From Catellatospora paridis (GTDB lineage: Bacteria; Actinomycetota; Actinomycetes; Mycobacteriales; Micromonosporaceae), in assembly GCF_009720365.1 (NCBI RefSeq), contig NZ_ML769315.1, positions 279,621 through 343,620 of the forward strand: a DNA stretch of 64,000 bases, in the 5' to 3' direction. The position numbers were made by a program, and so were the translations under genes. The notes under the pieces are model-generated. The model did not search any database and was not told the origin of the DNA. It was given only the letters and a program-made list of their open reading frames with translations. Position 1 is the stretch's first letter. Every line of letters begins with the position of its first letter. Shown piece after piece: positions 19,949-41,903 of this stretch.

Positions 19949-19978
19949 TTGACTGACGACTCAGTCAGCAAGTAGCCT
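19949..19978 (+). promoter_or_regulatory. Promoter with TGACTGA-N4-TCAGTCA operator (site A)
   Basis: TTGACT (19949-19954), 18 bases and TAGCCT (19973-19978) form the promoter of the CocE-type hydrolase gene. The perfect 18-base palindrome TGACTGACGACTCAGTCA (19950-19967) overlaps the -35 box and spacer, a typical TetR repressor position. Variants occur at 39744 and 40072. Confidence 0.8.
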
Positions 19979-20005
19979 TGCTGGGGAACCGGGAGGGGTG
20001 TCGGG

Positions 20006-21976
20006 ATGGCCACGCGGGCCGCAGGGCGCAGCGAGCAGGTCTGGATCACCATGGACGACGGTGTCCGCCTTGCCGCGACGCTCCAGCTGCCCGCCACGGA
20101 CACCCCGCAGCCCTGCCTGCTGGAGGCGCTGCCCTACCGCAAGGACGACGTCACCTCCTCGTACACCGAGGAGTACGAGCGCCTGCGCGACGACTTCTCA
20201 TACGCCGTATGCCGGGTCGACCTGCGCGGCACCGGCTCCAGCGAGGGCATCGCCGTGGACGAGTACCCGCTGCGCGAGCAGGACGACCTCGTCGCCGTCA
20301 TCGCCTGGCTGGCCGCACAGTCCTGGTGCGACGGCAGCATCGGCATGTACGGCACGTCCTACTCCGGGTTCAACGCGATCCAGGTCGCCATGCGCCGCCC
20401 GCTGGCGCTGAAGGCGATCGCGCCGATCTACGCGACCGACGACCGGTACACCGACGACGTGCACTACATGGGCGGCTCGCTGCGGCTGCTCGACGTCGTC
20501 GACTACCCGACCTACATGATCGCGATGAACGCGCTCCCGCCGGTGCCGTCGATCGCGGGGCCGGACTGGCGCGAGCGGTGGCAGGACCGGCTCGACCGCA
20601 CCGAGCCGTGGCTGCTGCGCTGGCTGGAGGAGGCCGTCGACGGGCCGTACTGGCGGCACGGCTCGCTGCGTGATCCCTCACTGGACACCGACGCGGACTA
20701 CGGCAACGACTACGCCCGCATCGCCGTGCCCACGATGGTCGTCGCGGGCTGGGCCGACGGCTACCGCAACAACAGCTTCCGCACGGTCGCGCAACTGCGC
20801 GACGCGGGCACCCCGGCGCGGCTGCTGGCCGGGCCGTGGAGCCACATGTCCGCCGAGTCGGCGCTGCCCGGCCCGCACGTCGACCTCGTCGCCGAACTGG
20901 CCCGCTGGTTCGACCGCTGGCTGCGCGGAGTCGACAACGGCGTGGACGCCGAACCGCCGTACACCTTCTTCCTGCGCGAATCCGGCGGCACCCCGGAGCC
21001 GGACGCGGCGCAGGTGGCCGGGTCCTGGCGCAGCATGCCGGACTGGCCGAACACGACCTGGCGATGCCCGCTGTCCTGGGTGATCGGCGGGGGCACCCGG
21101 GTGCTCGCGGTGCGCCCCGACACCGGCACCGCCGCCTGGAACAGCTGTGCCGGACGGCTGCCCTGGGGCCAGCCCACCGACCAGCGTTTCGACGATGCCG
21201 CCTCACTGACCTGGGACTTCCCCGTCGAGCAGGACATGACGCTCATCGGGCCGGGCCGGGTACGCCTGCGCGTCGCGGCCGACCAGCCGGTGGCGAGCGT
21301 GTCCGTGAAGCTGTGCGACGTCGCCGACGACGGCACCTCGACACTGATCACCCGCGGATTCCTCAACCTGACCCACCGCGACGGGCACACCGATCCCGTG
21401 CCGCTGGTGCCCGGCGAGTTCGTCGACGCCGAGGTCGAGCTGGAGACCTGCGCCTACACGCTGCTGCCCGGACGGCGGCTGCGGCTGTCGGTGACCGGGG
21501 CGGACTGGCCCAACACCATCGCGCCGCCGCGCCCGGTGACGCTCGCCGTGGACGGCGACCGGAGCACGATGCACCTGCCCGCGCCGCAGCACACCGACCC
21601 CGCGCCCCGCTACGACCAGGGGCAGCGCGCGGTCGAGGGCGACCCGGTGGGGTGGCGGATCAGCGACGACGTGGTCGACCGGGTCACCACGGCGACCGTG
21701 GAGCACGGCTCCACCTGGGACATCACCGGCGGCACCTGCACCGACCGGTACACCGGGTCGGTCAGCGTCGACCGGCGCACCTGGCGGCAGACGTCGACGT
21801 CGACCGCCCGTTTCACGCTCACCTGGGGCGATACCAGCGTGAGCACCGAATGCGCGGTCGAGCTGACCGCCGACGCCGACCACCTGACGGTCGCGATCAC
21901 GCTGCAGGCGTATGACGGCGACGCCGTCGTGAGCAAGCGCTGCTGGAACCACCAGGCGGCCCGCCGCTTCGGTTGA
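20006..21976 (+). CDS. CocE/NonD family serine hydrolase (X-Pro dipeptidyl-peptidase S15-like)
   Basis: 656 residues, predicted cytoplasmic as there is no signal peptide. The N-terminal alpha/beta-hydrolase domain has RVDLRGTGSSEG and the nucleophile Ser118 in MYGTSYSGFNA; the charge-relay Asp is likely in VVAGWADGYRNN and the His in GPWSHMSAES. The C-terminal region from about residue 400 is the jelly-roll domain seen in cocaine esterase and PepX (DLTWDFPVEQDMTLIGPGRV). Such enzymes cleave esters, amides or X-Pro dipeptides; which one applies is not clear. The ATG at 20006 has GGGAGGGG upstream. It is followed after 58 bases by an MFS transporter gene. Confidence 0.88.
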   Translation: MATRAAGRSEQVWITMDDGVRLAATLQLPATDTPQPCLLEALPYRKDDVTSSYTEEYERLRDDFSYAVCRVDLRGTGSSEGIAVDEYPLREQDDLVAVIAWLAAQSWCDGSIGMYGTSYSGFNAIQVAMRRPLALKAIAPIYATDDRYTDDVHYMGGSLRLLDVVDYPTYMIAMNALPPVPSIAGPDWRERWQDRLDRTEPWLLRWLEEAVDGPYWRHGSLRDPSLDTDADYGNDYARIAVPTMVVAGWADGYRNNSFRTVAQLRDAGTPARLLAGPWSHMSAESALPGPHVDLVAELARWFDRWLRGVDNGVDAEPPYTFFLRESGGTPEPDAAQVAGSWRSMPDWPNTTWRCPLSWVIGGGTRVLAVRPDTGTAAWNSCAGRLPWGQPTDQRFDDAASLTWDFPVEQDMTLIGPGRVRLRVAADQPVASVSVKLCDVADDGTSTLITRGFLNLTHRDGHTDPVPLVPGEFVDAEVELETCAYTLLPGRRLRLSVTGADWPNTIAPPRPVTLAVDGDRSTMHLPAPQHTDPAPRYDQGQRAVEGDPVGWRISDDVVDRVTTATVEHGSTWDITGGTCTDRYTGSVSVDRRTWRQTSTSTARFTLTWGDTSVSTECAVELTADADHLTVAITLQAYDGDAVVSKRCWNHQAARRFG

Positions 21977-22034
21977 CGTCGCCCACCGCGCCGACGTCGA
22001 CCATCCTTTACTTCCTCCTTGGGGAGACCTTTCC

Positions 22035-23354
22035 ATGTCCGGCCTCGCGGTCGTCACCGCTGCCCGCCGTTACCGTGCCCTCATCGCCAGCCCGGGTGTC
22101 GCCCGGGTGGCGGTGCCGTCCCTGATCGGCCGCCTGCCCTACGGCATGGCGACCCTCGTGTTCATCCTCGCCGTCCAGCACGGCACCGGCTCGTACGCCG
22201 TGGCCGGCATCGCCACCGGCGCGCACTCGGCGATCACCGCGTTCACCTCGCCCTGGCTGGGCCGGCTGTGCGACCGCGGGCACGCCGTCGCGGTGCTGCG
22301 GGTCACCGGCGTGCTCTACGCGCTGCTGCTGTCCGGCATGGTGGCCGCGCTGTGGACGCACCAGCCCGTGGCGCTGATCATCGGCCTGGCCGCGCTGGCC
22401 GGGGCCGCGAACCCGCCCGTCGGCGCGGTCACCCGGGTGGTGCTGCCCGGCCTCGCCCCGGCGCACGTGCAGACGGCGTACGCCTTCGACGCCATCACCG
22501 TCGAGCTCACCTACGTGCTCGGCCCGATGCTCATCGCGCTGGTCACCGCGGCCACCAACCCGTACATCGCGGTGATCGTCACCGCCCTGCTGGCCACCGC
22601 CGGCTCGCTGGGCCTGGCCGCCGCACCCGGGCTGACCGCCCGCTACCGCGAGGTGCGCACCTCCGCGCTCGCCCGCGCGGCGTCCGCCTCGAACGGTGTC
22701 ACCGTCAGCGCAGCAGCCCTGAAGCGCGCGCTGCGGGCCAACCGGTTGATGCGGCTGAGCATGGTCGTCGTGCTGGTCGTCGGCGCGCTGGAGGCCGCCG
22801 CGTACGGCGTGATGGAGGTGGCGATCCCGAAGTACGCCGCCGACCTGGGCGCGCCGCAGGCCGCCGGTGCGGTGGTGGCCGCCTGGAGCGCGGGCTCGAT
22901 CGTCGGCGGCGTCTGGTTCTCCGGCCTGAACCCCAAGCTGAGCCAGGCGAAGCTGTTCGCGCTGCTGCTCTGCCTGAACACGGTCGGCTTCGGCGCGATG
23001 CTGCTGGCCTTCGGCCTGCCCAGCCTGGCGCTGATCCTGTTCCTGGGCGGCATGGTCATCTCCCCGACCACCGCGGTCGAATGCGCGCTGGTCACCCGGA
23101 TCGCCCCCGCCGGGCGCAGCACCGAGGCGTTCACCTGGGTCGGCACCGGCATCTACGTCGGCTTCGCGGCCGGCTCGTCCATCTCCGGCCTGATCATCAA
23201 CCAGGGCACCAGCCTCAGCGTCGTCATCCTGATCGCCACCGCCATGGTCGCCACCGGCGCCCTGCTCGCCCTCACCGCCAGTCGCCGCATCGCCGCCGAC
23301 GCCGCCGCCAACCCCGACCCCGCCGCCCTGCCCGCTCCCGCCGCCGCCCACTGA
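22035..23354 (+). CDS. MFS transporter
   Basis: A 439-residue major facilitator permease with about twelve hydrophobic segments and a central cytoplasmic loop (residues 200-235) rich in Arg and Ala. The loop between segments 2 and 3 reads PWLGRLCDRGH, a form of the MFS motif A. Members with this pattern are usually proton-driven effluxers of drugs or small metabolites; the substrate is unknown. The ATG at 22035 follows GGGGAG. It lies 58 bases downstream of the CocE-type hydrolase gene on the same strand and may be co-transcribed from the same operator-controlled promoter, with the 69-bp hairpin repeat after it as end point. Confidence 0.87.
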   Translation: MSGLAVVTAARRYRALIASPGVARVAVPSLIGRLPYGMATLVFILAVQHGTGSYAVAGIATGAHSAITAFTSPWLGRLCDRGHAVAVLRVTGVLYALLLSGMVAALWTHQPVALIIGLAALAGAANPPVGAVTRVVLPGLAPAHVQTAYAFDAITVELTYVLGPMLIALVTAATNPYIAVIVTALLATAGSLGLAAAPGLTARYREVRTSALARAASASNGVTVSAAALKRALRANRLMRLSMVVVLVVGALEAAAYGVMEVAIPKYAADLGAPQAAGAVVAAWSAGSIVGGVWFSGLNPKLSQAKLFALLLCLNTVGFGAMLLAFGLPSLALILFLGGMVISPTTAVECALVTRIAPAGRSTEAFTWVGTGIYVGFAAGSSISGLIINQGTSLSVVILIATAMVATGALLALTASRRIAADAAANPDPAALPAPAAAH

Positions 23355-23404
23355 CCCAGGCCGGACCCACGCCGGCCGCCCCGGCCCGAGCGGGGTCGGT
23401 TGAT

Positions 23405-23473
23405 CGTCCGACTTGCCTGGCACCTGTGCGTATCTTGACCCCGCATTCGCCCATCTGCCAGGCAAGTCGGACG
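23405..23473. repeat. 69-bp CGACTTGCCTGGCA hairpin element, copy 1
   Basis: CGTCCGACTTGCCTGGCA (23405-23422) and TGCCAGGCAAGTCGGACG (23456-23473) are perfect 18-base arms around a 33-base loop starting CCTGTGCGTATCTTG. The copy at 41906-41974 has the same total length and loop start. Confidence 0.9.
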
Positions 23474-23552
23474 GTCTCGCGCCCCGGCGGCGGGCTTGAT
23501 CGGCGAGTTGGCGGATGGTGGGGCATGGACAGGCGTGCGTTAGGGTTCATCC

Positions 23553-24155
23553 GTGGCTCGACGAACTGCTGAAGTGCGCCTGGACTCGCTGCTGCGCACC
23601 GCGGTGGACGTGATCGTCGAACGTGGCTTCGCCAACACCCGCACCGCCGATGTCGCCAAGGCGGCCGGGGTCAGCCAGGCCCTGGTCTTCTACCACTTCA
23701 CCAGCAAGGACGCGCTGCTCGCGCAGGCGTTCGCGTACGCCGCCGAGCAGGACATGGCCCGGCTGCACGCGGTGATCGACTCCAACGCGTCGTCCGTCGA
23801 GAAGCTGAAGAAGCTGGTGAAGCTGCTCGCCCCGACCGGCCGGTCCAAGTCTTGGATGATGTGGATCGACGGCTGGTCGGAGGCGCTGCGCACGCCGGAG
23901 CTGGAGAAGGTCTCGCGCCGCATGGACCTGCGCTGGAAGGAGGGCCTCACCGAGGTCATCGCCAACGGGGTCGCCGACGGCTCGTTCACCTGCGACGACC
24001 CGGCCGGGGCGGCGTGGCGCATCAACGCCATCATCGACGGGCTCGCGGTGCAGCTCACCGTGCACGAGAAGGCGATCTCCCGCAAGCAGGCCTTCGACTG
24101 GATGCGCATGGTCGCCGCCCGCGAGGTCGGCCTGGACCCGTCCGACCTGGCCTGA
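23553..24155 (+). CDS. TetR-family regulator with BetI-like C-terminal domain
   Basis: 200 residues. Residues 8-55 are the DNA-binding domain (LLRTAVDVIVERGFANTRTADVAKAAGVSQALVFYHFTSKDAL), followed by a BetI-like C-terminal domain with WMMWIDGWSEALRTPEL and INAIIDGLAVQLTVH. The start is GTG at 23553; TAGGGT lies exactly at -12 to -7 and there is no ribosome-binding site, so it is probably leaderless. It stands alone between an MFS gene and a convergent DUF6807 gene. It is the nearest unassigned candidate for the TGACTGA-N4-TCAGTCA sites in the 20-40 kb region, but no such site lies at its own promoter. Confidence 0.87.
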   Translation: MARRTAEVRLDSLLRTAVDVIVERGFANTRTADVAKAAGVSQALVFYHFTSKDALLAQAFAYAAEQDMARLHAVIDSNASSVEKLKKLVKLLAPTGRSKSWMMWIDGWSEALRTPELEKVSRRMDLRWKEGLTEVIANGVADGSFTCDDPAGAAWRINAIIDGLAVQLTVHEKAISRKQAFDWMRMVAAREVGLDPSDLA

Positions 24156-24173
24156 CCGGCACCCTGGCGCGGT

Positions 24174-24983
24174 TCAGTCGCTGATCACCACGCGCAGCCT
24201 GCCGTGCCAGGTCTCGTGCGCCTCGATCAGCCGCGGATGGTCGTAGGCCCATGCGGCGCAGACTCCCGGATAACCGGTCGATCCTTCGCTGGTACGCACG
24301 AACCACCGGTCGCCGCTGCCCAGCCCCGAGAACCGCAGGGTGTACGCCGCGCCGCCCGACTCGCCCCGCCAGACCAGCTCGGCCTCCGCGCTCCCGTTGA
24401 CCTGCTCCTCGCCGACCAGCTCACCCGCGGTCAGGGCGAGGTTCGCCCCCGGCGCGATCCGCCAGAAGCACCCGCCGTACCCCGCCCCGCCTGGCCGCCC
24501 GTTGGTCGCCGGGCTGCCCAGCACGACGGTCTGCGTCGCGGTCAGCCACCATCCCAGCTCGAGCATCCACGACCGTTCGTCGAGGTACGTCGCCGTCATC
24601 GTGCGCCGCTCCGCCAGCAGCACCTTGCCGTCCGCGCCCCGCCATGCCAGCCGCTGCGCGAACCCGCCCGAGCCCACCTCGTCGAACCCCTCACCGGTGA
24701 TCGACCCGTGGTCGTCGAGCCAGGTGTAGCCCTGGTCCCGCACGTAGGTCCGGCCGCCCCACAGGTTGTTCCGGTTGACGTCCTGCATGGCCAGCGACAG
24801 CCCCAGGTGCCAGCGGTGGTCGTCGGGCATCGCATCCGTGACGAGCGTGCCCGCGAGCGTCCGGATCGGATGCAGGTATGGCCGCGGCCCCAGCGTCGGT
24901 TCGACCTCCGCCCCCGAGCGGTACTCCGCCACCACCCGACCCGCCACCATGAACTCCACGCGACCCGCCGCCTCTCCAGCCAT
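24174..24983 (-). CDS. PmoA-like protein (DUF6807 family)
   Basis: 269 residues of the PmoA/DUF6807 family, common in actinobacterial sugar-utilisation clusters, function not established. Typical blocks are RPYLHPIRTLAGTLVTD, HRWHLGLSLAMQDVN, FAQRLAW, and near the C-terminus the segment WFVRTSEGSTGYPGVCAAW. There is no signal peptide, so it is cytoplasmic. The name comes from distant similarity to methane oxygenase subunits and does not imply that activity. A LacI-type palindrome lies 21 bases upstream of the ATG, suggesting sugar-dependent control. No transporter or sugar enzyme is directly next to it. Confidence 0.8.
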   Translation of the reverse strand: MAGEAAGRVEFMVAGRVVAEYRSGAEVEPTLGPRPYLHPIRTLAGTLVTDAMPDDHRWHLGLSLAMQDVNRNNLWGGRTYVRDQGYTWLDDHGSITGEGFDEVGSGGFAQRLAWRGADGKVLLAERRTMTATYLDERSWMLELGWWLTATQTVVLGSPATNGRPGGAGYGGCFWRIAPGANLALTAGELVGEEQVNGSAEAELVWRGESGGAAYTLRFSGLGSGDRWFVRTSEGSTGYPGVCAAWAYDHPRLIEAHETWHGRLRVVISD

Positions 24984-25003
24984 GCCCGCCGCGGGGATGA
25001 TGC

Positions 25004-25017
25004 GGAAAGCGCTTACC
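25004..25017. promoter_or_regulatory. LacI-type operator before the DUF6807 gene
   Basis: GGAAAGCGCTTACC contains the eight-base palindrome AAGCGCTT with near-symmetric flanks. It resembles the operator at 27406 before the GH13 gene (core GGAAAGCGTTTTCC), so one LacI regulator not in this window may control both. Confidence 0.6.
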
Positions 25018-25027
25018 GCCGTTGAGG

Positions 25028-26092
25028 TTAGCGGGTTCCGGTGATCCCCGCCAGGGTTGCGACGGTGAGGGGGCCGAGGGTGGGCAGGTGGTAGCCGCCC
25101 TCATGCACGGCGACTACGGGCAGCCCCAGCTCGCGAACCAGTTCGCCGGTGCGGGCGTAGCCGTCCTCGGTGACCTGCAGCGGACTCTCCGGGTCGTCCT
25201 TGGCCGCGTCGACGCCCAGGGAGAGCACCACCGCGTCGGCGCGGTCGCCGATGAACTCGACCAGCTGCCGCACACCGGCCAGCCAGCCCTCGTCACCGGT
25301 GCCCGGCGCCAGGGGCACGTTGCGGTTCGCCCCTTCGCCCGCGCCGGTGCCCGTCTCGTCGGCGAAGCCCGCGTAGTGCGGGAACCAGCCCTCGCCCGGG
25401 TCCACGTGCACCGAGGTGTAGAGCACCTCCGCGCGGTCGTAGAAGATCGACTGGGTGCCGTTGCCGTGGTGGGCGTCCACATCGACCACCGCGACCCGGC
25501 CCACCCCCGCGCGCTGCAACGCGAGCACCGCGACCGCGGCGTTGTTGAGGTAGCACGAGCCGCCGAAGCCGCCGCGGGTCGCGTGGTGGCCGGGCGGGCG
25601 GCAGATGGCGTACGCGGCCCGCTCCCCCGCGGCGACCAGGTCGGCCGCGGTCGCGGCGGCATGTGCGGCCGCCCGCGCCGCGGGCCAGGTGCCCGGCCCG
25701 ACCAGGGTCATCGTGTCGTAGCAGAACTGCCCCGCCCGCGCGTGCGTCGCCGTGGGCCGGCGCATCGGCAGCCCTTCCAGCATCGCCGCGGTCGGGAACA
25801 CGTACGGCACCACCCGGTCCTGGTACTCCAGGTAGCCGCCGTCGACCCACTGGCCGTATACGCCCTCCAGGTGTGCCAGCAGCTCAGGCGTGTGGGCCTG
25901 GGCGAGCAGCTCGTCACCCAGCGGACGGGCCTCGACCAGGCGGGCTCCGGCGCGCACCAGCGCCGAGCGCAGCACGGTGGCCCGCTCGGGCAGCTCGGTG
26001 CCGGGCGTGCGCACACCGATCCAGATCTCGGCTTCCGGCACGTGCCGCAGCACGTCGTCGCTCCACACCACGGGCAGGTCCAGCTTCGCCAT
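25028..26092 (-). CDS. Histone deacetylase-like amidohydrolase (acetylpolyamine amidohydrolase type)
   Basis: A 354-residue zinc hydrolase of the arginase/deacetylase superfamily that removes acetyl groups from acetylated polyamines or lysines. The catalytic pair is His169-His170 in RPPGHHATRGGFGGSCYLNNAA; the zinc ligands are Asp206 and His208 in VDVDAHHGNGTQ and the Asp in LSLGVDAAKDDP; the catalytic Tyr is in HEGGYHLPTLG. These are all in place, so it should be active. The ATG at 26092 has no strong ribosome-binding site. It is divergent from the P1 peptidase gene across 74 bases, hinting at joint control of amide-bond-cleaving enzymes. Confidence 0.9.
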   Translation of the reverse strand: MAKLDLPVVWSDDVLRHVPEAEIWIGVRTPGTELPERATVLRSALVRAGARLVEARPLGDELLAQAHTPELLAHLEGVYGQWVDGGYLEYQDRVVPYVFPTAAMLEGLPMRRPTATHARAGQFCYDTMTLVGPGTWPAARAAAHAAATAADLVAAGERAAYAICRPPGHHATRGGFGGSCYLNNAAVAVLALQRAGVGRVAVVDVDAHHGNGTQSIFYDRAEVLYTSVHVDPGEGWFPHYAGFADETGTGAGEGANRNVPLAPGTGDEGWLAGVRQLVEFIGDRADAVVLSLGVDAAKDDPESPLQVTEDGYARTGELVRELGLPVVAVHEGGYHLPTLGPLTVATLAGITGTR

Positions 26093-26136
26093 CCCGGCAT
26101 GATGCCAGCACGGAGGGCCGGGCGGCAGGGATCGTT

Positions 26137-26160
26137 ACTGAGTCGAGACTCAGTTAGGCT
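26137..26160 (+). promoter_or_regulatory. P1 peptidase promoter with ACTGAGTC palindrome (site B)
   Basis: ACTGAGTCGAGACTCAGT (26137-26154) is an 18-base palindrome with one mismatched pair, directly followed by the -10 box TAGGCT (26155-26160), which sits at -12 to -7 of the ATG at 26167. The half-site TTACTGA/TCAGTTA resembles site A at 19950, but the spacing is eight bases rather than four. Confidence 0.7.
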
Positions 26161-26166
26161 GCGCCC

Positions 26167-27270
26167 ATGCCTCGTGTGACCGAACTCGGCATCACCATCG
26201 GTGAGCTGCCCAGCGGCCCCAGCCGCTCCATCCTCGACGTGCCCGGCGTGGGCGTCGGGCACGTCACCGTGTGGCGCGACGAGGACCAGCCGCCGGTCGG
26301 CCGTGGCGTCGCCCGCACCGGCGTCACCGTCGTCGACCCGGGAGGCAACGCGTTCCGCGAGCCGATCCCCGCGGGCGGGGCGATCCTCAACGGCGCGGGC
26401 GAGTGCACCGGCTTCATGTCCGCGCAGGAGTGGGGCCTGGCCGAGACGCCGATCTTCCTGACCTCGACGATGCAGCTGGGCCGGGTCTACGACGCCGCCT
26501 GCGAGCTGCTGATGGAGTCCGAGCCCGGCATCGGCGACGACGACGTGGTCATCCCGGTGGTGGCCGAGTGCGACGACAGCTTCCTGTCCGAGTCCCGCCG
26601 GATGCAGGTGACCCGCGACGACGTGGCTGCCGCGCTGGACGCCGCGCGGGCGAGCGCCGGCGCGGCCGCCGCCGACCGCGCGGCCGACCGTCCCGTCACG
26701 CCGCCCGCCGAGGGCGCGGTCGGTTCCGGAACCGGCATGAGCTGCCTGGGCTTCAAGGGCGGCATCGGCACCGCGTCGCGGGTGGTGCCGTCCGGCCATA
26801 CCGTCGGCGTGCTCGTCATGACGAACTTCGGCGAGCGCGGTCGCCTGACGGTGGCCGGCGTCCCGGTGGGACAGCTGCTGCCGCCCGCGCCCGCGCCGAC
26901 CGCGCCCCCGGCGGGCTCCTGCATCGTCGTCGTGATCACCGACGCGCCGATCGACCCTGCGGGCTGCCAGCGGCTGGCCCGCCGCGCCGGGCTGGGCCTG
27001 GCCCGCACCGGCTCGACCGCGCACCACGCGAGCGGCGAGATCTTCCTGGCCCTGGCCACCGGCCTGCGCGCGCCCCGCGGCACGGTCTCGCCGGTCACCC
27101 CGCTGCAGGGCCGCCAGCTGGACCCGTTCTTCGCCGCGGTGGTCGAGGCGACCGAGGAGAGCGTGCTCAACAGCCTGCTCAACGCCCCGACCGTGGTCGG
27201 CCGCAACGGCAACTCCTCGGAAGGCCTGCCCGTCGACCGCGTCGCCGCCCTGCTCGCCCTGCACTCGTAG
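26167..27270 (+). CDS. P1 family peptidase (DmpA/BapA-type aminopeptidase, S58)
   Basis: 367 residues of the N-terminal-nucleophile family that includes L-aminopeptidase D-Ala-esterase/amidase DmpA and beta-peptidyl aminopeptidases, which self-cleave into two chains. Diagnostic segments: ILDVPGVGVGHVTVW (residues 19-33), GAGECTGFMSAQEWGL, the Gly-rich GTGMSCLGFKGGIGTASR (about residues 194-211), VGVLVMTNFGERG and the C-terminal ATEESVLNSLLNAPTVVGRNG. I cannot fix the cleavage residue with certainty; it should lie at or after the FKGGIGTASR to VMTNFG region. The ATG at 26167 is leaderless by its TAGGCT box. It is followed by a large hairpin. Confidence 0.9.
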   Translation: MPRVTELGITIGELPSGPSRSILDVPGVGVGHVTVWRDEDQPPVGRGVARTGVTVVDPGGNAFREPIPAGGAILNGAGECTGFMSAQEWGLAETPIFLTSTMQLGRVYDAACELLMESEPGIGDDDVVIPVVAECDDSFLSESRRMQVTRDDVAAALDAARASAGAAAADRAADRPVTPPAEGAVGSGTGMSCLGFKGGIGTASRVVPSGHTVGVLVMTNFGERGRLTVAGVPVGQLLPPAPAPTAPPAGSCIVVVITDAPIDPAGCQRLARRAGLGLARTGSTAHHASGEIFLALATGLRAPRGTVSPVTPLQGRQLDPFFAAVVEATEESVLNSLLNAPTVVGRNGNSSEGLPVDRVAALLALHS

Positions 27271-27271
27271 A

Positions 27272-27361: not shown

Positions 27362-27364
27362 CCG

Positions 27365-27423
27365 TTGACCGTGAGAGAAACACCCCGGTAGGGTGGGCGA
27401 CCGCGATGGAAAGCGTTTTCCAT
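27365..27423 (+). promoter_or_regulatory. GH13 promoter and LacI-type operator
   Basis: TTGACC (27365-27370), 18 bases and TAGGGT (27389-27394) form a promoter. ATGGAAAGCGTTTTCCAT (27406-27423), symmetric except for the central pair, lies just downstream of the predicted start site, as a road-block operator for a LacI-type repressor responding to an alpha-glucoside. Confidence 0.75.
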
Positions 27424-31120: not shown

Positions 31121-32155
<1,035 letters not shown>

Positions 32156-33873: not shown

Positions 33874-34914
33874 TCAGGACGCCGTGACGCCGGTCGGCAC
33901 ACCGCCCGCGGCGCCCGCGATGCCGTCGCCGACGTGCCCGGGCAGCAGGCAGGCGGCTGCGTGGGCGCGGTGCAGCGGCAGCATCTGCAGCGGTTCGCCG
34001 ACACACCGGTCGGCGACGCCCGCGCGCTGGGCCCGGCCGTCGGTCAGTGCGGGGCATCGCGGGTGGAACCGGCAGCCGTCCGGGATGTGCCGCGGATCGG
34101 GCGCCTCACCGGTGAGGATGACGGGCTCGCGGTGCCGGGTCTCCGGCAGCACGGAGAGCAGCGCCTCGGTGTACGGGTGCTTCGGTGCGGCCAGCACCTG
34201 CTCGGTGCGCCCGATCTCGACGATGCGGCCCAGATACATCACCGCGAGCTGGTCGGCGATGTTCCAGGCCAGCCCCAGGTCGTGCGTCACGACCAGGACG
34301 GTCAGGCCGAGCTCGTCGCGCAGGGACATCAGCAGGGCCAGGATCTCGCCGCGCACCGACGCGTCCAGCGAGCTGACGGGCTCGTCGGCGACGATGACCT
34401 CCGGGTTGAGGACGAGCGCCCCGGCGATCACCACCCGCTGGCGCTGGCCGCCCGACAGCTCATGCGGGTAGCGGCCGAAGAAGTTCTCCGCGGGCCGCAG
34501 CCCCGCCAGCGACAGCGCCTGCGCGACCTTCGCCCGCTCGTCCCCGGGCACCCGGTGGATGCGCAGGCCCTCGGCGACCGCCTCGTACACGGTTCGCCGC
34601 GGGTTCAGCGCGCCCGTCGGGTCCTGCAGCACCAGCTGCACCTTGCGCCGGTACGCCTTCAGCGCGGAGTTGCGGTAGTCCAGCGGCGTCCCGTGGTAGA
34701 GCACCTGCCCCCGCCACGGCTGCGCCAGCCCCAGCAGCGTGCGGGCCAGCGTGGTCTTGCCGCAGCCGGACTCCCCGGCCAACGCGATGATCTGGCCGCG
34801 TTCGGCGGTGAGCTCGACCCCGTCGACGGCCCGCACCTCGGGCACGCCGCCCTTGCGGGGGCCGAACCCGACGTGCAGGTCACGAACTTCCAGTACCGGG
34901 TGGACGCTGGTCAT
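33874..34914 (-). CDS. dppF: Dipeptide/oligopeptide ABC transporter ATPase (DppF/OppF type)
   Basis: A 346-residue ATPase, last gene of the peptide-uptake operon. Walker A is GESGCGKTT, signature [15 protein letters not shown], Walker B VIVADEPVSSLD and the switch His in VVTHDLGLAWNIAD. The C-terminal oligopeptide/dipeptide extension carries the CRFHPRCP Cys cluster typical of Dpp/Opp ATPases. The ATG at 34914 overlaps the dppD stop by four bases. The last 45 residues after the Cys cluster are longer than usual and Ala/Gly-rich. A 157-base gap to the GNAT gene follows, with only a weak GGGGG/CCCCC hairpin. Confidence 0.92.
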   Translation of the reverse strand: MTSVHPVLEVRDLHVGFGPRKGGVPEVRAVDGVELTAERGQIIALAGESGCGKTTLARTLLGLAQPWRGQVLYHGTPLDYRNSALKAYRRKVQLVLQDPTGALNPRRTVYEAVAEGLRIHRVPGDERAKVAQALSLAGLRPAENFFGRYPHELSGGQRQRVVIAGALVLNPEVIVADEPVSSLDASVRGEILALLMSLRDELGLTVLVVTHDLGLAWNIADQLAVMYLGRIVEIGRTEQVLAAPKHPYTEALLSVLPETRHREPVILTGEAPDPRHIPDGCRFHPRCPALTDGRAQRAGVADRCVGEPLQMLPLHRAHAAACLLPGHVGDGIAGAAGGVPTGVTAS

Positions 34915-35921
34915 CGAAGGTTCTCCAGGGCCGTGGCGGATTCGGACGCGACGCCGACGTGTACGCAGGCCGCAGCCCGCCCGGGTGCCGCCGGCCGCAG
35001 CCGCACGTCCTCCGTGGCGCACTGCTCGATCGCCACCGCGCAGCGCGGGTGGAACGGGCAGCCGCCCGGCAGGTCCAGCGGGTACGGGGGATCGCCCGGC
35101 AGGCCGCGGGGAGCGCGGCGCGAGGCCATGTCCCCGATCACGGGGAACGCCCCCGCCAGCGCCTTGGCGTAGGGGTGGCACGCGTCGGTGAACAGGGTGC
35201 CGGCCGGCCCCTCCTCGACGATCCGACCGGCGTACATGACGGCGACCCGGTCGCAGACGTGGCTGAGCACCGACAGGTCGTGGCTGATCAGCATCATGCC
35301 GACGCCGCGTTCGGTGACCAGCGATTTGAGCAGCGCCATCACCTGTGCCTGCACCATCACGTCCAGCGCGGTGGTGGGCTCGTCCGCGATGATCAGGTCG
35401 GGCTCGCAGGCCAGTGCCATCGCGATCATCACGCGCTGGCGCTGCCCGCCGGACAGCTCGTGCGGGTAGCTCTGCGCCCGCCAGGCCGGCACGCCCACGC
35501 TCTCCAGCAGCTCGCCGACCTTGCCCGCGAGTGCCTTGCGACCCGCCTTGCGCTGCGCCGGGGTGCCGTGCAGCAGGATCGGCTCGGCGATCTGATCACC
35601 GATCCGGTGCACCGGGTTGAGGCCCGACATGGCGCCCTGGAACACGATCGACGCCGCCGACCAGCGGACCGCCCGCAACCTGCCCCAGGACATGCCCAGC
35701 ACGTCCTCGCCGTGCAGGCTGATCCGGCCGCGCACCGCAGTGCTCGCCGGGAGCAGCCGCAGCACCGCACCGGCCAGGGTCGACTTGCCGCACCCGGACT
35801 CCCCGGCCACGCCGAGGATCTGTCCCTTGCCGACCGTGAGGTCGACACCGCGGACCGCGGGCAGGAGGCCACCGGCGATCCTGTAGTCGACGTGCAGGTC
35901 CTGGATCTCCAAGAGTGTCAT
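34911..35921 (-). CDS. dppD: Dipeptide/oligopeptide ABC transporter ATPase (DppD/OppD type)
   Basis: A 336-residue ATPase that pairs with DppF to drive peptide import. Walker [10 protein letters not shown], signature [15 protein letters not shown], Walker [13 protein letters not shown] and the His in [14 protein letters not shown] are all present. The C-terminal domain has [17 protein letters not shown], the Cys motif of this subfamily. The start at 35921 overlaps the dppC stop by four bases, and its end overlaps dppF in the same way, so all five operon genes are coupled. Confidence 0.92.
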
Positions 35922-36835
35922 GCCCGCTCCCGCAGCCTCGGGTCGAGGATTCGCTCCGTCGCTCGACCGCACATGTTGAACGCCCGCACCACCACGACCA
36001 CGCTGAGACCCGGGAAGATCACCCACCACCAGGCGCCGTTGCTGATCGCGGCCTGCGCGTACGCGTCGTGCAGCACGGTGCCCCAGGACGCGTGCAGCGG
36101 GTCGCCGAGGCCGAGGAACGACAGGGTCGTCTCGGCCAGGATCGAGATCGACACGGTCAGCGTCGTGTTTGCCAGCACCAGCGGCATCACGTTGGGCAGC
36201 ACATGGTGGCTGACCTGGTGCCAATGTCCCGCCCCCAGTGCCTTGGCCCGCTCCAGGTACGGCCGCGCCTCGACGGTGAGCGCCTGAGCCCGGACGAGCC
36301 GGGCCGTGCCCGACCACGAGGTGATGCCGATGACGATGATCACCGCCAGCAGTTTCGGAAGCCCGTGGAACAGCTGTGCCAGCGCGATCGCCAGCGGCAG
36401 GAACGGGATCACCAGGAACCAGTCGGTGAGCTTGTTGAACACCCCGCCCCGCCAGCCGGTGAAGTGCCCGGCCAGCACCCCGACGAGGGTGCCGATGACC
36501 ATCGAGATCACTGTCGCGGCGAACCCGACGATCAGGGAGATCCGGCTGCCCCAGATGATGAGCGTCATGATCGGGCGCCCGTTGAAGTCGGTGCCCATCC
36601 AGAACGTTCCGGACGGCGGCTCGATCGGCCTGCCCGGCGCGTGCGTCACCGACAGCCCGGTCTCGGCGGCCAGCAGCGGCGCCGCGACCGCCACCGCGGC
36701 GATCAGCACCAGGAGGATCAGCCCGGTGAGCCCCTCACGGTCCCGCCGGTACTGCCGCCAGAAACCCGCCAGGGCGGCGCGCCGGCGCGCCCAGGCGACG
36801 CTGCCGCGCGTCACGTCCACGGTCGTCGTCGTCAT
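35918..36835 (-). CDS. dppC: Dipeptide/oligopeptide ABC transporter permease (DppC type)
   Basis: A 305-residue membrane subunit. The N-terminal cytoplasmic region is followed by one membrane segment (residues 39-59), an extracytoplasmic loop containing GTFWMGTDFNGRPIMTLIIWG, the DppC signature, and the five-helix core. The EAA loop is PYLERAKALGAGHWHQVSHHVLP (about residues 199-221). The start ATG at 36835 overlaps the dppB stop by four bases. The order dppA-B-C-D-F matches the textbook operon. Confidence 0.92.
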   Translation of the reverse strand: MTTTTVDVTRGSVAWARRRAALAGFWRQYRRDREGLTGLILLVLIAAVAVAAPLLAAETGLSVTHAPGRPIEPPSGTFWMGTDFNGRPIMTLIIWGSRISLIVGFAATVISMVIGTLVGVLAGHFTGWRGGVFNKLTDWFLVIPFLPLAIALAQLFHGLPKLLAVIIVIGITSWSGTARLVRAQALTVEARPYLERAKALGAGHWHQVSHHVLPNVMPLVLANTTLTVSISILAETTLSFLGLGDPLHASWGTVLHDAYAQAAISNGAWWWVIFPGLSVVVVVRAFNMCGRATERILDPRLRERA

Positions 36836-37854
36836 GCCGCACGCACCCTGGGGTCGATCAGCGGGTAGATGAGGTCCGCGATCAGGTTCATCACGATGAC
36901 CGCGGCCGAGAAGACCAGGAAGACCCCTTCCAGCAGCGGGTAGTCGGGGCCGCTCAGCGCCTGCTCGGAGAGCAGGCCCAGGCCCGGCCAGCTGAAGACG
37001 GTCTCGATGGTGATCGCGCCGGAGACGACGAAGCCGAGGCTGAGGAACAGCTGGGTCATCGACGGCAGCAGCGCGTTGCGCAGCGCGTGCCGGTTGCGCA
37101 CCTGGTCGTCGCGCAGGCCCTTGGCCCGTGCGGCGGCGAGGTAGTCCGCGTACCGCTCGTCGATGATCGAGGACCGCATGACGAGCGTGTACTGGGCGAT
37201 GTAGACGACGGTCAGCGCGGTCACCGGCAGCACCATGTGGTGGGCCACGTCCAGCCAGTACGGCAGGTCCGACCGGGGGTCGCTCATGCCGGAGACCGGG
37301 AAGAGCCCGAGACCGCTCTTCGACGCGAAGACGATGATCAGGATCAGGCCCAGCCACCACTCCGGCACCGAGTACCAGGTGAGCGAGGTGGCACTGGTGG
37401 CCCGGTCGAACCGGGAGCCGTGCCGCCACCCGGCCCGCGCGCCGAGCCACATACCGATCACCGCCGCGAGCACGAGCGCGGTGCCGGACAGCAGCACCGT
37501 CGGCCAGAAGCGCTCGGCGATGGCGTCGACCACCGGCTGGTGCTGCGAGTACGAGTGCTCCAGCTCGCCGTGCGCCAGGTTGTCCAGATACAGCAGGAAC
37601 TTCTCCCACCAGGGCTTGCCCTGGCCCATGCGCTCCCGCATGGCCTGCAGCGCGGCCGGGTCGTCGTTGCGCCCGCGCGGGGCGAACGTCTTGGCCGGGT
37701 CGCCGGGCATGACACGAAAGAGGAAGTAGTTGAAGATCGTCACGAACAGCAGCAGGACGGCCGCGCCGACCACCTTGGAGGCCACGTACCGGGGGGTGAG
37801 CGCCCGGAGGCGGCGCCGTGCGGCGCCGCCTCCGGTTCGTTGAGCCGTGCTCAT
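36832..37854 (-). CDS. dppB: Dipeptide/oligopeptide ABC transporter permease (DppB type)
   Basis: A 340-residue permease. The first membrane segment (residues 27-48) ends in FNYFLFRVMPGDPA, the DppB hallmark; the periplasmic loop GRNDDPAALQAMRERMGQ is followed by five further segments. The EAA-type loop YADYLAAARAKGLRDDQVRNRHALRNALLP is near residues 232-261. The ATG at 37854 overlaps the stop of the binding-protein gene. The protein forms the channel with DppC. Confidence 0.92.
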   Translation of the reverse strand: MSTAQRTGGGAARRRLRALTPRYVASKVVGAAVLLLFVTIFNYFLFRVMPGDPAKTFAPRGRNDDPAALQAMRERMGQGKPWWEKFLLYLDNLAHGELEHSYSQHQPVVDAIAERFWPTVLLSGTALVLAAVIGMWLGARAGWRHGSRFDRATSATSLTWYSVPEWWLGLILIIVFASKSGLGLFPVSGMSDPRSDLPYWLDVAHHMVLPVTALTVVYIAQYTLVMRSSIIDERYADYLAAARAKGLRDDQVRNRHALRNALLPSMTQLFLSLGFVVSGAITIETVFSWPGLGLLSEQALSGPDYPLLEGVFLVFSAAVIVMNLIADLIYPLIDPRVRAA

Positions 37855-39791
37855 TCGCGCTCGTCCGCTGTCGAGCGGCGCCTCATGGCGAAGACGGCGC
37901 CGCCGACCACCAGCAGGAGCACGACCGCACCCGCGATGATCAGGACGGTCCGGCTGCCGCCGGAGTCCTCCGGGGCCGCGGCCGGCGCGGTGTACGGCTT
38001 GATCGCCCGGTAGGACCAGGTGCCGATCTGGGCGACCATGGAGCCGCCCGAGGCGGGCTGCGGGACGAAGCCGGTGAACCGGTCGTTGCGGTACGCCTGC
38101 AGGGTCTGGTCGTAGTACAGCGTCGCGTAGACCGCGTTGACGTACAGGTTCTCCAGCGCCTTGTCGACGATCACCTTGCGCTTGGCCGGGTCCATCTCGA
38201 CGACGTGCTGCTTGTACAGGTTCTCGAACTCGGGGTTGCAGTAGAAGCTGTCCGACCAGCCGCCGGAGATGGCGTCACCGTCCATGGTCGAGCGCTGCGA
38301 GCAGGTGAACACCGACAGCAGGCCCTCCGGGTCCGGGCCCCACCACCAGTCCCACAGGAACATGTCGAACTTGCCCTTGCCGATGAGATCGGTCAGCGCG
38401 TCGTTGGAGACGACCTGCACGTCGGCCTTGATGCCGATCTCCTTCAGCCACTCCTGGATGTACCGCGCCTGGTCCTGCGACTCGGTGGCCTCGCTGCGCG
38501 CGAACAGCCGGAAGGTGAGCGGCTTGCCGTCGGGGCCGACCCGCACGCCGTCCGCGCCCGCCTTGTAGCCGGCCTCGTCGAGCAGCTGCTTGGCCTTGTC
38601 CGGCGCGAAGGTGCGCTTCATCGCGGCCGGCGGGTCCCAGTACCACGCGCTGTTGAGCGGGCTGTTCTCGCCGTAGGCGACCTTGGCGGTGCCCAGCAGG
38701 GTCTTGTCGACCAGCGTCTGCTTGTCGATCGCGTACTCGATGGCCTGGCGGACCTTGACGTTCTTGAGGGCCGGGTGCCCGTCACCGATCGGGGTGTTGT
38801 CCACCGTCGCCGCGCCGGTGTTCAAGCCGAGCTCGTACACGTACTGGCTGGGGCCCTGGTTCAGGGTGATGGTCGGGTCGCTCTTGGTCTTCAGCGCGTT
38901 GAAGGCCTTCGCCGTCAGCGCCGAGATGAAGTCGATCTCCCCCTTCTCCAGCGCCTGCACCATGGTCTCCTCGTTCTGGAAGAAGACCATCGTCAGCTCG
39001 CTGATGTGCGGGGCGCCGTTCCAGTAGCCCGGGTTCGCCTTGAACCGGTAGTACTGCCCCTTCTTCGCCTCGACCAGCTGGAACGGGCCGCTGCCGACGA
39101 CCGGCTTGCCGTCGCTGCCGTCGTTCGCATATGACCCGACGTCCTTGATGTTCTCCCAGATGTGCTTGGGCACCACCGGCACACCGCCGGCCATGGTCGC
39201 GGCGAGCAGCGAGGCGTTCGGCTCCGACGTGTGGATCACGAAGGTGTCGGCGTCGGGCGCCTCGACCTTGGTGACGTTGCTGAACGAGCTGCCGTACTGG
39301 CCGTTCTCCGTGGAGTCGGGCACCAGCACCCGCTCGTAGGAGAACTTGACGTCGGCGGAGGTGAGGTCCTTGCCGTCGGACCACTTCACGCCCTTGCGGA
39401 GATGGAAGGTCCAGGTCAGACCGTCCGCCGAAGTCTCCCACTTCTCGGCCAGCGAGGGCACGGGGGACATGTCCTGCGGCGAGCCGTCGGTGAGGTAGTC
39501 GTACATCAGCGCATACGCGTCGAAGGCCGGCACGAGCAGGCCGACGTACGGGTTCAGCGAGTCGATGTCCGCCTTGATGCCCATGACGAAGGCGTCCTTC
39601 GCGTGGGACTGGGCCGGGGCCGATGCGCTCACCGCGGTGCCGGGCGACGGGGTCCCGTCCGCGGCAGCTGGTGCCGCGACACCGCCGAGCGCGGTCAGTG
39701 CCACGGCGGCCACCAGTGCCATCCGCACGCGCAGATTCTTTACTGACTGATTGGTCAACCAGGATCTCGGAGCAGGAGGGGTGCTGCTCAT
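37851..39791 (-). CDS. dppA: Peptide-binding protein with C-terminal membrane anchor (SBP family 5)
   Basis: 646 residues. A Sec signal peptide (residues 1-45, ending APAAA) precedes a family 5 solute-binding domain with FVMGIKADIDSLNPY, the signature TWTFHLRKGVKWSDGKDLTSADVKFSYERV, and VRQAIEYAIDKQTLVDKTL. There is no lipobox Cys. Instead a hydrophobic segment, TVLIIAGAVVLLLVVGGAVF, sits near residues 612-632 and is followed by MRRRS, so the protein is anchored by its C-terminus. ATG 39791 has AAGGAG at the right distance. A TGACTGA half-palindrome lies inside codons 11-16. The protein delivers peptides (or similar ligands) to DppBCDF. Confidence 0.9.
   Translation of the reverse strand: MSSTPPAPRSWLTNQSVKNLRVRMALVAAVALTALGGVAAPAAADGTPSPGTAVSASAPAQSHAKDAFVMGIKADIDSLNPYVGLLVPAFDAYALMYDYLTDGSPQDMSPVPSLAEKWETSADGLTWTFHLRKGVKWSDGKDLTSADVKFSYERVLVPDSTENGQYGSSFSNVTKVEAPDADTFVIHTSEPNASLLAATMAGGVPVVPKHIWENIKDVGSYANDGSDGKPVVGSGPFQLVEAKKGQYYRFKANPGYWNGAPHISELTMVFFQNEETMVQALEKGEIDFISALTAKAFNALKTKSDPTITLNQGPSQYVYELGLNTGAATVDNTPIGDGHPALKNVKVRQAIEYAIDKQTLVDKTLLGTAKVAYGENSPLNSAWYWDPPAAMKRTFAPDKAKQLLDEAGYKAGADGVRVGPDGKPLTFRLFARSEATESQDQARYIQEWLKEIGIKADVQVVSNDALTDLIGKGKFDMFLWDWWWGPDPEGLLSVFTCSQRSTMDGDAISGGWSDSFYCNPEFENLYKQHVVEMDPAKRKVIVDKALENLYVNAVYATLYYDQTLQAYRNDRFTGFVPQPASGGSMVAQIGTWSYRAIKPYTAPAAAPEDSGGSRTVLIIAGAVVLLLVVGGAVFAMRRRSTADERE
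39744..39761. promoter_or_regulatory. Variant TGACTGA-N4 palindrome within dppA (site C)
   Basis: TGACTGA (39744-39750), TTGG, TCAACCA (39755-39761) matches site A at 12 of 14 arm positions. It lies 31 to 48 bases inside dppA and about 80 bases from the divergent oligopeptidase start. Codons here (AAT, TCA, GTA) are rare in this genome. An operator role is inferred. Confidence 0.4.
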
Positions 39792-39839
39792 CGGCTCTCT
39801 CCTTGGTGCCCGGGGGCGTGGCGGGTAGGGTGCCCGGTC

Positions 39840-41903
39840 ATGCCGCACGATCTCGACAACATCGCCGTCCCGCCGGTCGCCCCGCGCGAGCCCCACGAGC
39901 ACGAGCTGCACGGACGCCGGTGGACCGACGATTACGGGTGGATGCGCGACCACTCCGACCCGCGGTTTCTCGCCTACCTGCGCGCTGAGCGCGGGTACTA
40001 CGATGCCGCCGCGAACCGGCTGGAGGGCCTCCAGACCGAGGTCTTTCACGAGGTGGAGCGACGACTCCTTCCGACTGATGACTCAGTCAGTTGGAGACAT
40101 GGTTCACGTTTCTACTACACCCGGACCGTCGCGGGAAGTGAGTACGAGCAGTTCTTACAAGCTGGTCATGACGGCGACTCCGACCGGGTGCTGCTCGACG
40201 GGGCCCGGCTGGCGGGTCCCGACGGGTTCGCCGAGATCGGGTTGCGGGAGTTGAGCCCCGACAACACGCTCCTGGCGTATTCAGTGGATACCACCGGCGA
40301 CGAGGTCTATCGATTGAAGTTCCTCCAGTTGGCGACGTTGACTGACCTTTCGGAGGAGCTGCCGCGTACGTACTACACCGGCGCGTGGAGCGCGGACTCG
40401 GGCACGTTCTTCTACACCGTGCACGACGACCTGTTCCGCCCCCACCAGGTCTGGCGGCACGTCATCGGCACCTCACCGGACGCCGACGTGCTGGTCCTGC
40501 AGGAGGACGACGCCCGGTTCGAGCTCACCGTGCAGGCCACCCGCGACCTGCGGTGGATCATGATCGAGGCGCGCAGCCGGGACACCGCCGAGTGGCGGCT
40601 GATCCCCGCCGACACCCCGCAGGCCACGCCGGTGCTCGTCGCGCCGCGGCGCAAGGGCGTCGACTACACCGTCGACCACGCCGACGGGCGGCTCGTCATC
40701 GTCACCGACGACGGCGCGCCCGAGTTCCGGGTGATGTCCGCGCCGGTGGAGACCCCCGGCCCGGAGCACTGGACCGAGCTGCTCGCGCCGCGGCCGGGTG
40801 AGCGGATCACCGCCTGCCACGCGCTGCGTCGGCACTGGCTGGTCGAGCTGCGCCGCGACGGCTTCCCGCTGCTGCGCGCCGTGGACCGGGCGACCGGGAC
40901 GGTCGTCGAGATCGGCGCGGAGATCGACGCCGGCCACGTCCGCCTGACCACCCCGGTGGAGTACGGCGACACCACCGTCACGATCGTCGTCGAATCCCTG
41001 ACCGAACCGCCCGCCTGGCACTCCGTCGACCTCTGCACGGGCGAGCGCGAGCTGCGCAAACGCCGCGAGGTGCCGGGCTACGACCCGTCGGCGTACCGGA
41101 CCGCACGACGGCACGCGATCGCCCCGGACGGCACCGCCGTGCCGGTGACGCTGGCCTGGCGCGCGGACACCCCGCTCGACGGCACCGCCCCCGCCCTGCT
41201 CTACGGGTACGGCGCCTACGAGTCCGTGCTGGACCCCGAGTTCGATCCGGTGCTGCCCAGCCTGCTCGACCGCGGCGTGGTGTACGCGCTGACCCACCCG
41301 CGCGGCGGTGGCGAGAACGGCCGCGGCTGGTGGCATGACGGGCATCTCGCCGCGAAGGCCAACACCTTCACCGACCATCTCGCCGTCGCCGACTGGCTGG
41401 CCGACGGCATCGCCGACGGGTCGCGCCTGGCCACCCGCGGGCTGTCGGCGGGCGGCCTGCTGCAGGGCGCGGTCTACACGTCTCGCCCCGGACGCTGGGC
41501 CGCCGTCGTCGCGGAGGTGCCGTTCGTGGACGTCGTCACGACCATGCTGGACCCCGACATCCCGCTGACCGTCACCGAATGGGACGAGTGGGGCGACCCC
41601 CGCAAGCCCGACGAGTTCGACTGGATGTGGGCGTACTCCCCGTACCATCACCTGCCGTCCGGTCCGCGCCCGGCGCTGCTGGCCACCGGCGCGCTGCACG
41701 ACCCGCGGGTCATGGTGCACGAGCCCGCCAAGTGGGTGGCGCGCCTGCGCGCCACCGCCACCCCGGACGACGGCCCCCTCTACCTGCGCCCCGAACTCGG
41801 CTCAGGCGCGCACACCGGTCCCGCCGGCCGCTATGCCCACGCCCACTACGAAGCCGAGATCGCCGCCTTCGTCCTGTCCCACCTCCGGACCACCGCCCCC
41901 TAG
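39840..41903 (+). CDS. Oligopeptidase B-type prolyl oligopeptidase (S9A)
   Basis: A 687-residue cytoplasmic serine peptidase that trims short peptides, in the OpB group after Lys or Arg. Residues 1-400 form the gating beta-propeller (start WTDDYGWMRDHSDPRFLAYL is typical), and 405-687 the hydrolase domain. The catalytic triad is Ser536 in TRGLSAGGLLQGA, Asp621 in LHDPRVMVHEP and His658 in GSGAHTGPAGR. It is divergent from the peptide ABC operon with only 48 bases between starts, so import and cleavage of peptides are linked. Codons about 75-170 are AT-rich and include a TTA leucine codon (40155-40157), unlike the rest of the gene. Confidence 0.92.
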   Translation: MPHDLDNIAVPPVAPREPHEHELHGRRWTDDYGWMRDHSDPRFLAYLRAERGYYDAAANRLEGLQTEVFHEVERRLLPTDDSVSWRHGSRFYYTRTVAGSEYEQFLQAGHDGDSDRVLLDGARLAGPDGFAEIGLRELSPDNTLLAYSVDTTGDEVYRLKFLQLATLTDLSEELPRTYYTGAWSADSGTFFYTVHDDLFRPHQVWRHVIGTSPDADVLVLQEDDARFELTVQATRDLRWIMIEARSRDTAEWRLIPADTPQATPVLVAPRRKGVDYTVDHADGRLVIVTDDGAPEFRVMSAPVETPGPEHWTELLAPRPGERITACHALRRHWLVELRRDGFPLLRAVDRATGTVVEIGAEIDAGHVRLTTPVEYGDTTVTIVVESLTEPPAWHSVDLCTGERELRKRREVPGYDPSAYRTARRHAIAPDGTAVPVTLAWRADTPLDGTAPALLYGYGAYESVLDPEFDPVLPSLLDRGVVYALTHPRGGGENGRGWWHDGHLAAKANTFTDHLAVADWLADGIADGSRLATRGLSAGGLLQGAVYTSRPGRWAAVVAEVPFVDVVTTMLDPDIPLTVTEWDEWGDPRKPDEFDWMWAYSPYHHLPSGPRPALLATGALHDPRVMVHEPAKWVARLRATATPDDGPLYLRPELGSGAHTGPAGRYAHAHYEAEIAAFVLSHLRTTAP
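40072..40089. promoter_or_regulatory. TGACTGA-N4-TCAGTCA palindrome within the oligopeptidase gene (site D)
   Basis: CGACTGA (40072-40078), TGAC, TCAGTCA (40083-40089) matches site A at 13 of 14 arm positions, about 235 bases into the coding region. It is spelled by rare codons (ACT, GAT, TCA, AGT). Intragenic repressor binding is possible; chance cannot be excluded. Confidence 0.4.

Follow-up and report, generated by a model that had tools for sequence, protein, structure and literature searches.

A palindrome shared by peptide-related genes marks a candidate TetR regulon in Catellatospora, with two conserved sites inside coding sequence

The locus described here lies in a stretch of 64,000 nucleotides of Catellatospora paridis (Micromonosporaceae; contig NZ_ML769315.1, forward-strand positions 279,621 to 343,620), hereafter the window. 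It carries an operon for a CocE-type hydrolase, a major facilitator superfamily (MFS) transporter and a TetR-family regulator (TetR2), preceded by the 18-bp palindrome TGACTGA-N4-TCAGTCA (O1). Some 20 kb further on, related sites stand inside the divergent genes for a peptide-type binding protein (O2) and an S9 peptidase (O3). A prediction made from the sequence alone, referred to below as the original prediction, had proposed that these sites mark a peptide-scavenging regulon under the TetR gene at 23553. We followed it up in the whole genome (8.97 Mb), in 11 Catellatospora genomes and in a family sample of 121 genomes, 58 with and 63 without a TetR2 homologue. Mismatches were counted in the 14 arm bases of the motif, and the gene starts of some open reading frames (ORFs) in the window were set mechanically. 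The features on which the argument turns are the following.

19949-19978, plus strand: sigma-70-like promoter TTGACT-N18-TAGCCT, placed by eye and putative, overlapped by O1
19950-19967: putative operator O1 at the operon promoter, the perfect 18-bp palindrome TGACTGA-CGAC-TCAGTCA (motif scan)
20006-21976, plus strand: CocE/NonD (peptidase S15) hydrolase (PF02129, PF08530, TIGR00976)
22035-23354, plus strand: MFS transporter (PF07690)
23553-24155, plus strand: TetR2, TetR-family regulator with a BetI-type C-terminus, proposed reader of the motif (PF00440, PF13977)
33874-37609, minus strand: further genes of the ATP-binding cassette (ABC) importer, namely a permease ORF at 35918-37609 (PF00528, PF12911) and ATPase ORFs at 34911-36317 and 33874-35181 (PF00005, PF08352; mechanical starts), the profile matches being those of the region taken together
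36832-37854, minus strand: ABC importer permease, downstream of the binding-protein gene (PF00528)
37851-39791, minus strand: family-5 (peptide/nickel type) solute-binding protein, first gene of the oligopeptide-type ABC importer (PF00496)
39744-39757, minus strand: putative in-gene operator O2, 14-bp form TGACCAATCAGTCA, bases 35-48 of the binding-protein gene
39840-41903, plus strand, divergent from the binding-protein gene: S9 peptidase, oligopeptidase B-like (PF02897, PF00326)
40072-40089: putative in-gene operator O3, codons 78-84 of the S9 peptidase gene

The palindrome and the CocE-MFS-TetR2 operon

With up to three mismatches allowed, the window holds five matches to the motif against 1.36 expected, a number reached in 1 of 100 shuffles. 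They are TGACTGACGACTCAGTCA at 19950-19967 (no mismatch), CGACTGATGACTCAGTCA at 40072-40089 (one), TGACTGATTGGTCAACCA at 39744-39761 (two) and two matches with three mismatches each, one an overlapping register at 39740 and the other at 53771; the palindrome and its near copies at 39744 and 40072 are thus confirmed where the original prediction had placed them. Genome-wide, at most one mismatch is found at three sites, two of them in the window, against one for the reversed control. The count at up to three mismatches (83 against 54 for the control) implies that weak sites are mostly chance, and most were left unused.

The position of O1 over the putative −35 box of the CocE gene was equally borne out, since TTGACT at 19949-19954 is overlapped by the palindrome, with TAGCCT at 19973-19978, 18 bases further. 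The hydrolase encoded downstream passes the TIGR00976 subfamily cut-off (212 bits against 66.3). The exact O1 18-mer is present in 11 of 11 Catellatospora genomes (eight of eight in the family sample, plus G003, G004 and G005), including G002 and G008, where CocE is a C-terminal remnant of 34-52 residues, and G009 and G010, which lack a close CocE match; in G008, G009 and G010 it stands before the MFS gene. Alignment finds the arms intact in five CocE-bearing relatives and weakened forms in G025 and G036, and an MFS orthologue lies downstream of the motif in G008, G009, G010, G019, G093, G111 and G124. The target kept most widely is the MFS and TetR gene pair, not CocE. The persistence of O1 where CocE has been lost suggests that the core unit is operator-MFS-TetR2, CocE being an extra member in some species. 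A second perfect 18-mer, at position 9242 of locus L176 (G093), falls inside the MFS gene there (match coordinates 8611-9690) and may be a third in-gene site.

Sites inside the S9 peptidase and binding-protein genes

The S9 peptidase has both the N-terminal propeller (PF02897) and the catalytic domain (PF00326). It scores 404.2 bits against the 1313 required by the oligopeptidase B equivalog NF007511, and for this reason we call it oligopeptidase B-like, its Arg/Lys specificity being a prediction. The arms of O3, ACTGA-N4-TCAGT, occur in 13 of 13 orthologues of the type found at this locus (ten from Catellatospora and those of G019, G025 and G036; four genera), and the spacer codons and residues vary among them (DD, DS, ES, DE). 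Some S9 match at E ≤ 1e-100 exists in 115 of the 121 family genomes, where a housekeeping-type paralogue is distinct from the locus type; the arms are absent from all 20 housekeeping-type paralogue loci examined (part of those listed), and the other S9 paralogue of the C. paridis genome itself (C9:26851-28956) holds no ACTGAN{2,10}TCAGT. When the S9 gene was resampled synonymously 5000 times, 13 of 14 arm bases were attained once. The codons at O3 are ACT, GAT, TCA and AGT, which make up 1.0%, 4.1%, 2.7% and 1.5% of the codons for their own amino acids among 7937 codons of 17 window genes (AAT and TTG account for 1.5% and 1.7%), in agreement with the earlier remark that the in-gene sites use rare codons. 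Together with the comparisons at O2 below, the record in relatives supports the view that the in-gene sites are kept at the DNA level. Each of G009 (L222) and G010 (L223) has a locus-type S9 match with one in-frame TGA and still keeps the O3 arms. An internal promoter at O3 was considered and rejected, as inspection by eye gave no good hexamer pair.

The 14-bp form of O2 was found near the gene start in all nine binding-protein homologues examined, as TGACCAATCAGTCA in six Catellatospora genomes, TGACTGGTCAGTCA in G019, TGACTGGCCGGTCA in G025 and TGACTGATCAGTCA in G036, and the residues encoded there differ (LTNQS, LTGQS, LTGRS, LTDQS). Taken with its flanks, this form equals a pair of 18-bp registers that overlap at an offset of 4 bp (39740 and 39744). 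O2 lies before or at the start of the signal peptide, where protein constraint should be weak.

Intragenic operators, that is, repressor sites within the coding sequence of the genes they control, are exemplified by lac O2 and gal OI of Escherichia coli. The Catellatospora sites likewise lie in genes, and they are kept across genera at the cost of rare codons. The spacing of O2 and O3 is not fixed and gives looping no support: the centre distances in eight genomes (330, 330, 330, 330, 338, 331, 302 and 323 bp, or 28.8-32.2 turns) share no helical phase over their range of 302-338 bp, and a DNA loop between the two sites is therefore not claimed.

The candidate regulator and related sites

TetR2 has a TetR_N helix-turn-helix (PF00440, E 2.3e-15, 56.5 bits against a cut-off of 24) and a BetI-type C-terminal domain (PF13977), in keeping with BetI-type TetR regulators. 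It is not BetI itself, because its score against the TIGR03384 equivalog is 66.8 bits, below the cut-off of 201.3. Its genome encodes one TetR2 homologue at E ≤ 1e-30, and O1 precedes its own operon. The same association recurs outside Catellatospora: in genomes G093, G111 and G124 of g61 and in G019 the MFS-TetR2 pair has the motif upstream of it, and in G018, G019, G025 and G036 the TetR2 gene is preceded by a motif that begins 63-72 bp away, none of 200 base shuffles doing as well in any of the four. Among 63 exact TGACTGN6CAGTCA sites in the 121 family genomes, 18 (in 15 genomes) are within 6 kb of a TetR2 homologue, against about 0.1 expected for random placement. Because the motif adjoins its orthologues or paralogues in several other genera, TetR2 appears to be the best candidate reader. 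Motif placement thus supports the candidate repressor of the original prediction, the BetI likeness being confined to the domain family.

Several observations weigh against this reading. No site of at least 12 arm bases is found within 150 bp upstream of 27 of 31 TetR2 genes (42 bp of upstream sequence for one of them), no exact site within 6 kb of the gene in 43 of the 58 TetR2-bearing genomes, and recognition helices are near-identical with and without nearby sites. At class level, 38 of 246 genomes have a homologue at E ≤ 1e-40; the 22 loci examined (homologues of 44-68% identity, 1.5-kb flanks) lack a site of at least 12 arm bases, and a class-wide extension of the regulon was dropped. Presence by genome is no help either: exact TGACTGN6CAGTCA occurs in 30 of 58 genomes with TetR2 and 7 of 63 without (reversed control, 20 of 58 and 4 of 63), and the full 18-mer in 22 of 58 and 3 of 63 (control, 5 of 58 and 1 of 63). 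As the reversed control shows a similar bias (p 1.6e-4), the Fisher p of 1.3e-6 for the motif was not used as evidence. Resampling of the binding-protein gene reaches 12 of 14 arm bases in 123 of 5000 trials over its first 60 codons and 138 of 5000 over the whole gene, so that this gene taken singly is unexceptional and the case for O2 comes from comparison. The reversed motif matches almost as often as the forward one (33 against 39) in the 31 stretches described below, 28 of its matches overlapping forward ones and five being P1 sites. Its frequency is explained by the half-site being a four-base repeat. Lastly, the P1 site, seen in Catellatospora only, was not found before P1 in G019, G025 or G036.

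The TetR gene nearest O1 is a different one, absent from the original prediction:

19292-19894, plus strand: TetR1, a separate TetR gene directly preceding CocE

Palindromes of another type, AACGAATGTTCGTT at 19209-19222 and AACGATCGTTCGTT at 19264-19277, lie upstream of it, between TetR1 and a minus-strand gene, which is the usual divergent TetR arrangement.

Beyond the window, paired registers at C6:20017 and C6:20021 form a site (C6:20017-20038) that precedes a gene for a flavin adenine dinucleotide (FAD)-dependent oxidoreductase; all 11 Catellatospora genomes retain its block TCTTCCCAACTGA-N4-TCAGTCAG, and the upstream flank has diverged. The proposal of a regulon of peptide genes thus stands in that one motif marks the CocE operon, the binding-protein gene and the S9 gene, and falls short in that the MFS-TetR2 and FAD oxidoreductase targets go beyond the label. 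Since MFS-TetR is the most widely kept target and the oxidoreductase is a further one, we keep 'peptide scavenging' as a mere label, a plausible one. Other sites were set aside, among them C3:649921 and C7:185381, whose ACGATCG core resembles by eye the operator of another TetR, and C7:78056 (ACTGA-N7-TCAGT), which recurs in other listed Catellatospora genomes and has another spacing.

In G025, the gap upstream of a 5-guanidino-2-oxopentanoate decarboxylase gene contains a perfect site. In G036:C305, G087:C124 and G106:C32 an exact TGACTGN6CAGTCA follows a TetR2 paralogue (41-43% identity) at a distance of 33-41 bp; these are three of the 18 sites counted above, and that of G036 stands before an acyl-CoA dehydrogenase-like gene (named by eye). 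The genus g53 (G089, G108, G121 and G140) carries 5, 8, 5 and 6 exact TGACTGN6CAGTCA sites per genome against 1, 0, 2 and 1 for the reversed control, none within 6 kb of a TetR2 gene; a larger regulon is possible there.

A survey of spacings covered 31 stretches (581,383 bases), selected for holding these genes or sites, and gave 39 matches of at least 12 of 14 arm bases at spacing 4, 25 at spacing 8 and 18 at spacing 0, with 0-2 matches at each remaining spacing up to 12. In the first 12 stretches the motif had 21 matches, whereas 30 palindromes permuted from the same letters averaged 0.27 and never exceeded 3. Such steps of 4 bp between spacings hint at registers of a single type of site. 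The longest form is represented between the two halves of the proposed regulon, where these features lie:

24174-24983: DUF6807 protein gene
25028-26092: histone-deacetylase-fold protein gene
26135-26156: palindrome of the 22-bp class, TTACTGAG-N6-CTCAGTTA, at the P1 promoter, assignment to TetR2 uncertain
26167-27270, plus strand: P1 (S58) peptidase, apparently leaderless (PF03576 and sequence)
31124-32155: semialdehyde-dehydrogenase-family gene (PF01118, PF02774)

The P1 site reads TTACTGAGTCGAGACTCAGTTA and ends shortly before the ATG at 26167. It is present in all ten Catellatospora P1 loci examined (G001 left out); in G005, G009 and G010 it differs by a single base at one end. The half-site noticed earlier at 26137 does belong to a promoter palindrome; it is of another spacing class and was found in Catellatospora only, and its place in the regulon is tentative. 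A palindrome of the same class, TAACTGAGCGACGACTCAGTGA, stands about 140 bp upstream of a 6C RNA match (RF01066; G000:C9:113562-113798; L274, L173), aligned in five Catellatospora genomes; G019 has a variant of it with 11 of 12 arm bases, and the other 29 6C loci scanned reach at most 10 of 12.

Proposed mechanism and rival explanations

From the sites, their conservation and the way they are placed with respect to TetR2 and its presumed targets, we consider it likely that TetR2 recognises TGACTGA-N4-TCAGTCA and its variants as the repressor of a small regulon made up of its own operon, the importer, the S9 oligopeptidase and the FAD oxidoreductase. As judged from site positions, dimeric TetR2 would repress CocE, MFS and its own gene at O1, covering the −35 box and spacer and so blocking the binding of RNA polymerase. 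At O2, just inside the binding-protein gene, it would act on the peptide importer as an elongation roadblock, and in the same way on the S9 oligopeptidase at O3, about 240 bp inside the gene; the FAD oxidoreductase gene elsewhere in the genome would also be repressed. A ligand from peptide or amino-acid metabolism would release TetR2, allowing peptide import and cleavage. More tentatively, and with considerable doubt on our part, the repressor could read TGAC-repeat half-sites, the palindromes of 14, 18 and 22 bp then consisting of a single 18-bp register or of two that overlap with a 4-bp shift, bound by one dimer at O1 and O3 and by two at O2 and the FAD oxidoreductase and P1 sites. On that proposal, selection would have placed such registers within genes on both sides of a divergent promoter, in four genera and at the cost of very rare codons, and in some species 6C RNA would be controlled by this regulator too, or by a sister of it.

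That the in-gene sites are chance products of protein conservation would be suggested by the position of O3 within a conserved TDxSV block of the peptidase, yet the paralogues devoid of the arms mostly share those residues, spelled ACC GAC CTG TCG GTG or similar, while the arms survive D-to-E and D-to-S changes in all 13 orthologues, and we regard this account as highly improbable. Binding of the sites by another regulator, with TetR2 a mere neighbour, also seems improbable, if less strikingly so: TetR1 is one candidate, being nearest O1 and syntenic in the Catellatospora stretches, but the palindromes upstream of it are of a different type, and at the cut-offs used the other-genus stretches, several of which have the motif near TetR2, yielded no TetR1 homologue. 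TetR1 is accordingly not favoured as reader.

For the P1 palindrome the assignment is far less settled, and it is a serious possibility, only somewhat short of an even chance, that it serves a different regulator with ACTGA-N8-TCAGT sites that also precede the 6C RNA gene. Such a regulator would account for the occurrence of the 22-bp class before 6C RNA in Catellatospora and G019 and for the missing P1 sites in G019, G025 and G036; on the other hand, the P1 site shares its half-site and neighbourhood with the other sites, and the 22-bp form would accommodate a pair of 18-bp registers offset by 4 bp, like O2 and the FAD oxidoreductase site, although its inner bases fit poorly. With regard to physiology, the regulon could instead be a detoxification or drug-efflux response in which the peptide genes remove a peptide-like toxin, because resistance sets commonly combine a hydrolase, an MFS exporter and a TetR gene. 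This possibility, which we think rather unlikely, draws on the layout of the CocE-MFS-TetR operon and on the transporter, whose sole NCBIfam match is weak, reaching 28.9 bits with an H+ antiporter subfamily that requires 319.6. Against it, the importer and peptidase marked by the same motif suggest uptake and use, and genes near TetR2 in other genera include, by family match, proline racemase and DAO (L176), a DHDPS-like gene (L181), a PucR-type gene and, in G025 and G036, 5-guanidino-2-oxopentanoate decarboxylase. These matches to amino-acid catabolism favour nutrient use over drug efflux.

The closest operator known to us from elsewhere is that of SbtR (TTHA0167), a TetR-family repressor of Thermus thermophilus, whose selected consensus is TGACTGGCCAGTCA, also written TGACYRNNYRGTCA (PMC4948773, PMC7022988). 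The half-site TGACTG/CAGTCA is common to both systems and O2 fits the 14-bp consensus as given there, with N2 between TGACTG and CAGTCA; O1 and O3, with N6, are 18 bp long and thus 4 bp longer. SbtR comes from a different phylum, and the likeness noted here is one of operator DNA. Among the papers listed in literature searches on TetR operators, peptide genes and Catellatospora, none was seen to describe the present regulon. It is a known kind of system, a TetR regulon, set apart by two conserved putative operators inside genes.

An uncharacterised TetR clade of Micromonosporaceae thereby gains a concrete, testable regulon. The locus also offers a clear comparative case of operators conserved within protein-coding genes, with a built-in control in the genome's own second S9 paralogue, which lacks the site, and two of the targets would escape a search restricted to intergenic DNA. 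A structural question arises from the conserved four-base registers, namely whether one dimer or two would occupy them.

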